In this document: positions 45,668 through 47,950 of the stretch, in pieces | Position numbering within the stretch: the stretch's first letter is position 1 | How the letters are laid out: each line of letters starts with the position of its first letter | The notes under the pieces: model-generated | Database searches by the model: none | The model's input: the letters and a program-made list of their open reading frames with translations, nothing else | What the model was told of the DNA's origin: nothing | Position numbers and translations under genes: made by a program | From: Tersicoccus phoenicis | GTDB taxonomy: Bacteria; Actinomycetota; Actinomycetes; Actinomycetales; Micrococcaceae | Direction of reading: 5' to 3' | Length of the DNA stretch: 64,000 nt | Assembly: GCF_001968835.1 (NCBI RefSeq) | Contig: NZ_MRDE01000009.1 | Location: 1-64,000 of the forward strand

Positions 45668-45784
45668 GCCGAGTTAGCGGGTGCCGCCCGACCCTCCCGC
45701 CGAGTTAGCGGGTGCCGCCCGACCCTCCCGCCGAGTTAGCGGGTGCCGCCCGACCCTCCCGCCGAGTTAGCGGGTGCCGCCCGA
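45668..45784. repeat. 31-bp tandem array, three full units plus 24 bp
   Basis: Units at 45668-45698, 45699-45729 and 45730-45760 are identical. A fourth at 45761-45784 stops after 24 bases and continues into the palindrome described next. Each unit is the left arm of that palindrome (GAGTTAGCGG... CGCCCGA) plus a CCCTCCC spacer. The array therefore arose by amplifying one hairpin arm. Confidence 0.9.
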
Positions 45785-45830
45785 GATGAGTGCTCTTTGA
45801 GCACCGTGTTCGGGCGAGAACCGCTGACTC
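45764..45830. repeat. Palindromic element, upstream copy (flanks the DUF559 gene)
   Basis: A 67-bp multi-stem structure. GAGTTAGCGG pairs with CCGCTGACTC (one G-T pair), CGCCCGA pairs with TCGGGCG, and a central hairpin GTGCTC-TTT-GAGCAC lies at 45790-45804. A related copy in the same orientation lies downstream of the gene at 46902-46969. It ends 87 bases before the DUF559 ATG. Confidence 0.85.
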
Positions 45831-45917
45831 ACCACGCGGGGACGCCCGGTGCGGTGGTCCGCGTTGTCCACAGGCTTGAGGTGACGGATTCCGCTGGCGG
45901 TTCCTTACCGGAACAGT

Positions 45918-46871
45918 ATGCACATGCGCACCATCCGCACGCTGACTCCGATCCCGACCGGGCATGAACTCGGGGTCCGGACGACGACGCAATTGGCGCA
46001 AGCCGGGTACACGTCGAACCGACTCGAGCGCCTCGTGGCCGGTGGGTCCTTGGTGCGCATCTGGCGGGGACACTATGTCAGCGCGTCGGCGTGGAACGCT
46101 CTGACCACCGACGAACGGCATGCAGCGTTGCTGACCTGCGCCCAGGGGTCCGCCGCTGACGGGGTTCGTGTCCTGTGTCGAGGCAGCGCGGCACTGGCCC
46201 ACGGCGTCAGCCTTCTGAGAGCCGATCCGACGGTCCACCTCCTCTGCCCGACGCCCCGGTCCACCCAGGTTCGCCACGCTGGAGTGCGTCTCCACGCCTG
46301 CGACGAGGAGCCGGACGTCGTCGTGCTCGCCAATGGTCTCCGGACGACGGGGGCGTTGCGGACGCTCACTGACTGCAGCCGCTTCCTGCCTCACCGAGAC
46401 GCGCTGGTGATCGCTGACCAGTTCGCCGCCACCGGAGTGGACCTGGCCGCCGTCCGGGCCTGGGCTGCGTCGCACTCGGGCTGGCGTGGTGTCGCCCGGT
46501 TGCGGCTGGTCCTTGACCGCGTCGATCCGCTGGCGGAGTCGGCGGGCGAGACGTTGACCCGGATCCGCCTGCACGAATGGGCGGTTCCGTTGCCCGTCAG
46601 CCAGTACGAGATCATGACGCCGATGGGCCTCTTCCGCGCCGACTTCGCCTGGCGGGAGCTGATGCTCATCCTCGAGTTCGACGGCCGCACCAAGTACTTC
46701 GGTGAGACCCCGACGGCCGAGGTGCTCTTCAAGGAGCGGCAGCGCGAGAAGGCGCTGGCCGCACTCGGCTGGACGATCCTGCGCACCGACTGGGATGAGG
46801 TGAACCGCCGGCCGGAGGCCCTCCGTGGCCGGTTGGCGTCGACGCTGCGGACGACGGCCCGCTTCGCCTGA
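45918..46871 (+). CDS. AbiEi-like/DUF559 endonuclease-fold protein
   Basis: A 317-residue protein with two parts. Residues about 20-60 (TQLAQAGYTSNRLERLV, then VRIWRGHYVSAS) match the winged helix of AbiEi-type antitoxins, which binds DNA. Residues about 205-310 match DUF559, a Vsr-like PD-(D/E)xK nuclease relative. Candidate active-site residues are Glu211, Asp242 (FRADFAW), Glu253 and Asp255 in LILEFDGRTKYF, and Lys259. The ending EKALAALGWTILRTDWDEV is typical. No AbiEii toxin partner is adjacent. The gene sits alone in a convergent gap of the ABC transport locus, bracketed by two copies of a palindromic element. ATG 45918 or 45924 may be used. Biological function is unknown. Confidence 0.82.
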   Translation: MHMRTIRTLTPIPTGHELGVRTTTQLAQAGYTSNRLERLVAGGSLVRIWRGHYVSASAWNALTTDERHAALLTCAQGSAADGVRVLCRGSAALAHGVSLLRADPTVHLLCPTPRSTQVRHAGVRLHACDEEPDVVVLANGLRTTGALRTLTDCSRFLPHRDALVIADQFAATGVDLAAVRAWAASHSGWRGVARLRLVLDRVDPLAESAGETLTRIRLHEWAVPLPVSQYEIMTPMGLFRADFAWRELMLILEFDGRTKYFGETPTAEVLFKERQREKALAALGWTILRTDWDEVNRRPEALRGRLASTLRTTARFA

Positions 46872-46901
46872 CGGTGGACGGCGCACGGTTGCCGTGCCGC
46901 T

Positions 46902-46969
46902 GAGTCAGCGGTACCCGCCCGAAGCACGTGCTCTTCGAGCACCCATGTCGGGTGGAGAACCGCTAACTC
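46902..46969. repeat. Palindromic element, downstream copy
   Basis: A 68-bp copy of the upstream element in the same orientation. It has arms GAGTCAGCGG/CCGCTAACTC, inner stem CGCCCGA/TCGGGTG and central hairpin GTGCTC-TTC-GAGCAC (46928-46942). By hand alignment 51 of 68 positions match. Twelve of the 16 substitutions fall in loops or bulges, and the stems are conserved. It begins 30 bases after the DUF559 stop and ends 24 bases before the convergent permease stop. Confidence 0.85.
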
Positions 46970-46993: not shown

Positions 46994-47950
46994 CTAGACG
47001 CTGCGCGTCTTGGGGTCCAGGGACTCCCGCAGCGACTCACCGAGCAGCGTGAACCCCAGCGCGGTGATGGCGATGCAGATACCCGGCAGGAACGCCAGCT
47101 GGGGGGCGACGGCCAGCTCGTTCTGCGCGTAGGTGAGCATGCGGCCCCACTCGGCGGTCTCGGGCCGGCCGCCGCCCAGACCCAGAAACGACAGGGCCGC
47201 CGCGTCGATGACCGCCGTCGCGAGCGTCAGCGTGGCCTGCACGATCACCGGCCCGATGCTGTTGGGCAGCAGGTGACTGATCGTGATCCGACCCGGTGAC
47301 AGGCCCAGGGTGCGTGCCGCCAGCACGTAGTCGGCGCCGCGCTGGGAGAGCATCGACGCGCGCAGCAGCCGGGCGAAGATCGGCACCTGGGAGGCGCCGA
47401 TGGCGATCATGACGGCGGCGGATCCCTGGCCGAGGACGGCGGCGATGCTGACCGCCAGGAGCAGGTTCGGCACCGAGAGCAGGACGTCGACGACCCGCAT
47501 GATGATGCTGTCGACCCAGCCGCCGAAGCCGCCGGCGAGCAGGCCGAGCAGCATGCCGCCCGCCAGGCCGAGGGCGGTGGAGACGATCCCGATCAGCAGG
47601 GACGCTCGCGCACCCCAGATCAGCTTCGACAGCACGTCGCCGCCGAACCGGTCCAGGCCCAGCGGGAAGCCGTCGATCTCCCCGAAGCCGGGGATGCGGG
47701 TCGGCGTGATGTACTGCCGGCCGGGCAGGTCGTCGCCGCCGTAGGGAGCGAGGACCGGTGCGAGCAGGGCGATCAGGACGAAGATCACGACGATGACGGC
47801 GCCGGCGATGGCAGCGGGATTGCGGCGCAGCCGGAGATAGGCCTCGTGCCAGAGGCTGCCGCCGCCGCGCGCGTCGCCCGCGGTGCCCGGTGTCGTCTCC
47901 GGGCCCGAGCCGGAACTCGGCGCGGAGGTCGGGGGAAGAGTCGTACTCAT
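46994..47950 (-). CDS. Peptide ABC transporter permease (DppC-like)
   Basis: A 318-residue inner-membrane permease. The N-terminal oppC-type helix LRRNPAAIAGAVIVVIFVLI is at about residues 41-60. The binding-protein-dependent transport domain follows, with six helices and the EAA loop YVLAARTLGLSPGRITISHL contacting the ATPase. The C-terminus is AITALGFTLLGESLRESLDP. ATG 47950 overlaps the dppB-like stop by four bases. It pairs with the upstream permease, and the ATPase is encoded across the DUF559 insertion on the opposite strand. Confidence 0.93.
   Translation of the reverse strand: MSTTLPPTSAPSSGSGPETTPGTAGDARGGGSLWHEAYLRLRRNPAAIAGAVIVVIFVLIALLAPVLAPYGGDDLPGRQYITPTRIPGFGEIDGFPLGLDRFGGDVLSKLIWGARASLLIGIVSTALGLAGGMLLGLLAGGFGGWVDSIIMRVVDVLLSVPNLLLAVSIAAVLGQGSAAVMIAIGASQVPIFARLLRASMLSQRGADYVLAARTLGLSPGRITISHLLPNSIGPVIVQATLTLATAVIDAAALSFLGLGGGRPETAEWGRMLTYAQNELAVAPQLAFLPGICIAITALGFTLLGESLRESLDPKTRSV

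Follow-up and report, generated by a model that had tools for sequence, protein, structure and literature searches.

A solitary AbiEi-Vsr nuclease gene of Tersicoccus phoenicis is, like many of its actinobacterial relatives, bracketed by matched palindromes

The window analysed here is a stretch of 64,000 nucleotides from Tersicoccus phoenicis (contig NZ_MRDE01000009.1, positions 1 to 64,000). It features a nuclease gene that is enclosed by two palindromic elements and resides between a gene for an ABC transporter ATPase and an oppositely oriented permease gene (Table 1), just as an earlier note made from the sequence had described it. That note overlooked three additional tandem left half-elements beside the left palindrome. 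In ungapped aligned stretches of 61 and 28 nt the two elements share 72% and 79% identity, in agreement with the roughly 75% given before, while the same orientation assigned to them is not firm because they match each other either way, slightly better when inverted (score 71) than when direct (57). The highest scores reached by 158 control ORFs, 171 random geometries and 518 cross pairs were 44, 40 and 45, respectively. In an ungapped dyad scan of the window, the left palindrome (dyad score 13) shares ranks four to nine, the right one is absent from the best 12 dyads listed, and four Markov windows yielded maxima of 11-16. A single window palindrome is thus not beyond chance; the matched pair around the gene exceeds it. 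The exact palindrome pattern is present at only two places in the 3.2-Mb genome, namely in both flanking elements.

Table 1. Features of the nuclease locus in the window
Feature	Position	Strand	Basis or remark
Left neighbour, dual ABC transporter ATPase, 593 aa	43855..45636	+	Outside cassette; also beside the orthologues in genomes G001 and G002
Three tandem left half-element copies (GAGTTAGCGGGTGCCGCCCGA, period 31 bp)	45671..45753	+	Directly outside left palindrome
Left palindromic element, 67 bp	45764..45830	.	Same class as L329, L330, L331 (sister species)
AbiEi-Vsr (DUF559) nuclease gene, 317 aa	45918..46871	+	ORF, Pfam, PADLOC, predicted fold
Right palindromic element, 68 bp	46902..46969	.	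Pattern and alignment with left element
Right neighbour, ABC transporter permease facing ATPase	46994..47950	-	Outside cassette; ORF start picked by eye

The encoded protein matches Pfam DUF559 with 24.1 bits (cut-off 20.6), AbiEi_4 with 19 bits, which is under the 25-bit cut-off of that family, and the PADLOC AbiEi profiles with a best E-value of 8.6e-14. An AlphaFold model (mean pLDDT 88, pTM 0.84) is predicted to consist of two parts. Residues from about 16 to 203 resemble AbiEi of Streptococcus agalactiae (6y8q, Z 11.4, rmsd 6.1 over 173 residues) and 1zel (Z 8.4), and residues from about 206 to 315 resemble I-Bth0305I (3r3p, Z 14.3 over 97 residues), NGO0050 (Z 12.9) and Vsr (1cw0, Z 10.1 over 105 residues). 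According to this model, the protein joins a DNA-binding part of the AbiEi fold to a nuclease of the Vsr/I-Bth0305I fold. Of this combination, which had been noted before, the DUF559 part is backed by Pfam and the AbiEi part by PADLOC and the predicted fold. Among 17 aligned proteins including that from the window, 15 match REase_MTES_1575, 14 AbiEi_4 and seven DUF559 at an E-value of 0.01, and MTES_1575 has been assigned to the Vsr-fold REases (PMC3710099). In this alignment, E211, E253, D255 and K259 are invariant, as are the EFDGxxKY residues of the nuclease domain, and D242 is nearly so. E211, D242, E253, D255 and K259 may form the active site. At an E-value of 0.01 NCBIfam holds no family for the window protein, a PDB sequence search with it yielded nothing significant (NGO0050 appeared at E 0.68), and as a single query it found no match at 1e-5 in plasmid and phage collections.

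Matches to the window protein are present in 48 of the 59 genomes searched, its own included, with up to eleven per genome. We took 90 loci, left out two fragments (L050, L059) and a fusion (L092) and kept 87 including the window; a locus was regarded as bracketed when matching repeats, direct or inverted, were located on both sides of the gene with a score of at least 40. This applies to 67 of the 87 loci, while the other 20 stay below the threshold. The corresponding figures are 1/158 for neighbouring control ORFs, 2/171 for random geometries and 1/518 for cross-locus pairings. Bracketing is found at all degrees of kinship, i.e., in Tersicoccus (5/6), in the rest of the family (33/47) and in other families of the order (29/34), and 31 of the 35 genomes of the set contain one or more bracketed loci. 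We also scored a second set, comprising 80 named loci of which most are from Arthrobacter and seven belong to the first set as well. It gave 56 bracketed and 24 unbracketed loci and none among 196 control ORFs; here, 33 of 473 cross pairs reach the threshold, since the same palindrome class recurs at many loci. When the genes of one genome are compared with each other, 66 of 77 have an own pair that scores higher than all cross pairs, and a score of 40 or more is reached by 60/77 own pairs versus 8/400 cross pairs. The pairing of the nuclease gene with its own repeats is locus-specific within genomes.

Some loci feature peculiar arrangements. At L041, L032 and L169, the direct repeats on the two sides of the cassette exceed the length of one palindrome (scores 169 to 251), suggestive of larger duplicated ends. 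The genome containing the window has a second nuclease gene (L038, G000:C105:83473-84381) that is 45% identical to the first and has flanking repeats of its own (GGGACAGTTCCTACCG...); its homologues in the sister species (G001:C22 and G002:C18) are bracketed as well.

The orthologues of the window gene in the two other Tersicoccus genomes, G001 (72% identical) and G002 (68%), occupy the same ATPase-permease junction. Left and right elements of one locus match each other with scores of 71, 62 and 34 in the three species, while scores between species do not exceed 31, and at the G001 orthologue the palindrome class has changed on both sides. The window class (GAGTYAGCGG-N35-60-CCGCTRACTC) is confined to the three Tersicoccus genomes among 149 Micrococcaceae, with two copies in the window, one in G001 (L329) and two in G002 (L330, L331). 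None of the latter three has a match to the window protein within 1.5 kb. G001 thus still keeps a solo element of the window class although the pair at its orthologous nuclease has changed class, and L330 carries an outward array of left half-elements of the same kind as that in the window. The earlier note had suggested looking for an empty ATPase-permease junction in related genomes. All three Tersicoccus genomes have the gene at this site, and we found no clean empty one, as the facing junctions in G009, G010 and G018 carry other ORFs by visual inspection.

On a FastTree phylogeny of 125 proteins, which is weak in many of its deep branches, three changes suffice for the 46 rows assigned to a named palindrome class, the minimum for four classes. 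When the 79 unclassed rows are treated as one group, 17 changes are needed versus a mean of 42.0 after shuffling, and none of 200 shuffles gave a number as low. Class 1 (TCGCYGGAA) is found at the tgt-yhhQ junction as well as in other places such as the L19/R20 junction, and the four loci at the latter share one starred clade with tgt-yhhQ loci. Class 2 occurs in 13 rows at tgt-yhhQ and in one elsewhere. Classified palindromes track the protein clade rather than the genomic site, which implies that the cassette moved together with its palindromes or was lost and regained.

Palindromes are not restricted to the vicinity of nuclease genes. The exact class-1 pattern is present in 70 of 121 genomes with up to 13 copies per genome and that of class 2 in 28; a reversed-pattern control gave no match in any of the 121. 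A sequence-only model of class 1, limited to 46 scored candidates in each genome and run with filters that miss weak matches, finds class-1 elements in 103 of the genomes, the top count being at least 47 strand matches or, at about two matches per element, roughly at least 23 elements. Among 46 element loci from the Arthrobacter group, 12 reside beside a class-1- or class-2-like nuclease gene and 34 have none within 1.5 kb. By a GC3 heuristic, 30 of these 34 solo elements are extragenic, as compared with 18 of 92 control positions. Where both neighbours could be scored (23 solo elements), the gene pairs are convergent (11) or tandem (12) and never divergent. None of these 23 solo copies was thus seen in a promoter-promoter gap, which speaks against the palindromes acting merely as operators, a reading we return to below.

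The occurrence of elements goes along with that of the cognate nuclease. Counted without correction for kinship, class-1 elements are present in all 18 genomes encoding a class-1 nuclease (at least 75% identical to that of L121), in 7 of the 21 genomes without any nuclease match and in 5 of the 14 class-2 genomes, which are defined by the nearest protein at the tgt-yhhQ site (a fragment in one case). Class-2 elements, again without such a correction, are found in 11 of the 14 class-2 genomes, the other three having no match, but in only one of the 21 nuclease-less and one of the 18 class-1 genomes. Of the 68 genomes outside these three groups, 40 contain class-1 and 15 class-2 elements. Median counts with the class-1 model, also uncorrected for kinship, are 21.5 in class-1 genomes and 4 in both nuclease-less and class-2 genomes; class-1 elements in genomes without a close nuclease could be relics. 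The earlier note had held that copies spread over the genome without association to DUF559 genes would count against a pairing. This applies only in part: solo copies do occur, yet their abundance tracks the cognate nuclease.

Different species carry the cassette, one solo palindrome or neither at the tgt-yhhQ junction. This junction was read in 90 of 105 yhhQ-bearing genomes of the Arthrobacter group; six of the 90 are unscorable and 47 contain a DUF559 match (three of them short). In those without a match, the gap is shorter than 250 bp in 19 genomes and spans 794-1026 bp in 18. By eye, the 19 short gaps comprise 12 with one solo palindrome (class 1, class 2 or other), one with a half-element (L212) and six with neither. 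While the gene-bearing allele is flanked by two intact elements, some gene-less alleles carry a solo element. Palindrome-sized indels are apparent at orthologous sites. The compared lengths are 59 versus -3 bp for L124 and L125, where the flanks are 90 and 84% identical and L125 retains a short half-site-like remnant, and 81 versus 9 bp for L133 and L202. Neither a target-site duplication nor a clean insertion boundary is evident at the four sites compared, the flanks of which have diverged too far for a strict negative. Solo elements may be remnants of lost cassettes, the direction of change at tgt-yhhQ being unpolarised.

Other features were noted in the same genomes. The 18 longer gaps harbor a different ORF of about 260 aa that appears hydrolase-like by eye (e.g., L192, L227 and L264) and adjoins a solo class-1 palindrome in L264. 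In L197, also at tgt-yhhQ, a solo class-1 palindrome is interrupted near its centre by a second, nested palindrome. Another palindrome class (GACGCTCTCTCACTT...AAGTGAGAGAGCGTC and relatives) is present in L198, L194, L142, L126 and L162 from the Arthrobacter group in the form of indels between orthologous sites, and a further one (CATCGATTGCT...AGCAATCGATG) is located at about 3585-3690 in L130 and L131, whereas L114 and L153 are shorter there.

The architecture of the elements was analyzed in a set of 169 palindromes into which a few loci entered under two ids (e.g., L009 and L111). In 58 arms out of 148 (versus 3 after shuffling), a 7-mer recurs 19 bp further on with at least six of its seven positions matching. 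This repeat is most frequent in class 1 (25/31 arms) and less so in class 2 (6/22) and other classes (27/96), and by eye the window's own class lacks it. The 19-bp offset points to a common plan of four half-sites, two per arm, with the arms inverted about the centre. Element length is well kept: in the loci retrieved, 50 of the 66 elements of class 1 measure exactly 58 bp. Mismatches in the stems are about equally often G.T (214) and A.C (235). For the hairpin of the earlier note, the stems thus give no sign of a strand-specific single-stranded form, which is probably not a requirement; the absence of strand bias argues for a double-stranded site. The spacers between the half-sites are only partly complementary. 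Spacer cells with two-sided, compensating changes number 84 versus 53.6 in shuffles (reached in 0/500) and most covariation measures lie above the shuffles, so that some selection or process for palindromy is left, while the number of spacer pairs changed on both sides (12 versus 10.1 expected, 46/500 shuffles) is not exceptional. Arrays of half-elements, surveyed in 158 flanks with a few loci under two ids, lie outward in nine cases, seven of them distinct, and inward in two.

A double-stranded site would also suit a purely regulatory role, in which the palindromes are operators bound by the AbiEi-type part, for the sake of autoregulation plus a small scattered regulon or of organizing the chromosome, the nuclease moves nothing and ordinary evolution spreads the elements. 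AbiEi has been reported to bind two 23-bp inverted repeats in its own promoter and Rv2827c four (PMC7319586), a natural precedent that, by analogy, may apply to the binding part of the window protein, and the left element precedes the nuclease gene by about 90 bp. We nevertheless consider a purely regulatory role unlikely. It does not account for the matched copy downstream of the gene, for the preservation of the whole element length, for the compensating changes in the spacers or for the mostly outward half-element arrays, and a nuclease domain with an EFDGxxKY motif invariant in 17 proteins would be unneeded for regulation. Even less probable is a function in defence or self-recognition, whereby a solitary AbiEi-nuclease acts on incoming DNA and the palindromes mark self or keep the enzyme inactive. 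The match to the PADLOC AbiEi profiles and the predicted fold of an abortive-infection antitoxin point in this direction, but the immediate neighbours in the window are the ABC transporter genes, with neither an AbiEii toxin gene nor a methyltransferase gene, and self-marking leaves the co-existence of solo, cassette and empty states at one junction unexplained. That the elements are ordinary bidirectional terminators which happen to adjoin a homing-type nuclease gene is very improbable, since in spite of their mostly extragenic position, often between convergent genes, terminators would not be expected to match in sequence across the members of a single gene family but not across adjacent ORFs, to follow the nuclease clade or to be commonest together with the cognate nuclease.

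From sequence comparison we conclude that the pairing of the AbiEi-Vsr nuclease with cognate dispersed palindromes is a real, recurrent system. Bracketing, solo copies and presence/absence support the core of what the earlier note had proposed, a selfish or domesticated cassette in which a DUF559 nuclease is paired with its flanking palindrome. With a probability of roughly 0.6, the nuclease and an extragenic palindrome family of its own are dedicated partners and the window contains one copy of a widespread cassette resembling REPIN/RAYT. Most likely, the nuclease moves the palindromes. The AbiEi-type part would bind the half-sites as double-stranded DNA in the way AbiEi binds inverted repeats in its promoter, and the upstream copy of the element probably doubles as operator of the nuclease gene. 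The Vsr-fold domain would cut the element at or near the dyad, and repair of the cuts may copy, move or lose elements. Such repair would account for the solo copies, the presence of elements in some species only, the half-site remnants and the outward half-element arrays, the latter two fitting a putative cut near the element centre. In this manner the nuclease would keep a small population of palindromes alive. Mobility of the palindromes must be slow, as concluded from the shared site in the three Tersicoccus species, the lack of plasmid and phage matches and the low element numbers. It is conceivable, at slightly less than even odds, that we are dealing with a new class of mobile palindromes, in which the AbiEi-Vsr nuclease cuts double-stranded palindromes of four half-sites at the dyad, break repair spreads the elements, and element and protein specificity change together so fast that sister species differ at one and the same site.

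How does this system compare with those already described? REP-like palindromes are usually discussed together with a single type of enzyme, RAYT. In the open-licence journal literature searched, we found no description of the present pairing of nuclease and palindrome. The passage of the RepRanger publication drawn on here (PMC12306157) contains a table row for an Arthrobacter genome and does not use the words 'endonuclease', 'transposase' or 'RAYT'. TnpA-REP is described as mostly single copy, more similar to housekeeping genes than to transposases, correlated with REP abundance and adjoining REPs (PMC8266576). The resemblance to such REP/REPIN-RAYT systems (REPtrons) lies in a mostly single-copy chromosomal nuclease gene linked to co-varying dispersed extragenic palindromes (PMC8266576, PMC3116915), and the co-occurrence of dispersed extragenic palindromes with a cognate gene flanked by them is found here, too. 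The enzyme is different, however, combining AbiEi with a Vsr fold instead of being an HUH Y1 transposase. In addition, strand bias is lacking, half-sites are 19 bp apart in many classes, and the richest genomes contain at least tens of copies as compared with hundreds for REPtrons. Y1_Tnp (PF01797) is encoded in none of 28 genomes, while 5 of 14 control genomes have a match, and we reject a RAYT or IS200 enzyme as the mobiliser in these 28. GTAG/CTAC within 14 nt of the ends of class-1 elements is not enriched (4/46 versus 8/92 in the control). With the defining enzyme absent and the GTAG tag unenriched, we do not file the system as a REPtron, even though its logic works like one.

The other relatives each share one part of the protein. 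Homing endonucleases usually sit in an intron, an intein or a conserved coding gene. The I-Bth0305I/EDxHD homing endonucleases and Vsr have the predicted C-terminal fold in common with the window protein (3r3p, 1cw0), but the gene described here resides in none of these places and, not being inserted into a target gene, does not encode a typical homing endonuclease. With the AbiE type IV toxin-antitoxin system it shares the predicted AbiEi fold of residues 16-203, and AbiEi likewise binds inverted repeats. In contrast, the AbiEi part is fused to a nuclease here and the elements are located on both sides of the gene and elsewhere in the genome. As no gene for an AbiEii nucleotidyltransferase toxin resides beside the window gene, we do not regard it as part of a type IV toxin-antitoxin system. 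VsrA of Caulobacter is similar in being a DUF559 protein with a Vsr-type nuclease (PMC12907096). It differs as a predicted enzyme of the mismatch-repair type linked to a cytosine methyltransferase, the passages on VsrA drawn on here mention no palindromes (PMC12907096), and no methyltransferase was recognised beside the window gene. Across an order of actinobacteria, a fold unrelated to RAYT appears to fill the same role. This provides the large unexplained AbiEi/DUF559 gene family with a context linked to function, and dozens of natural protein-palindrome pairs with different specificities render DNA recognition, co-evolution and element spread directly testable.
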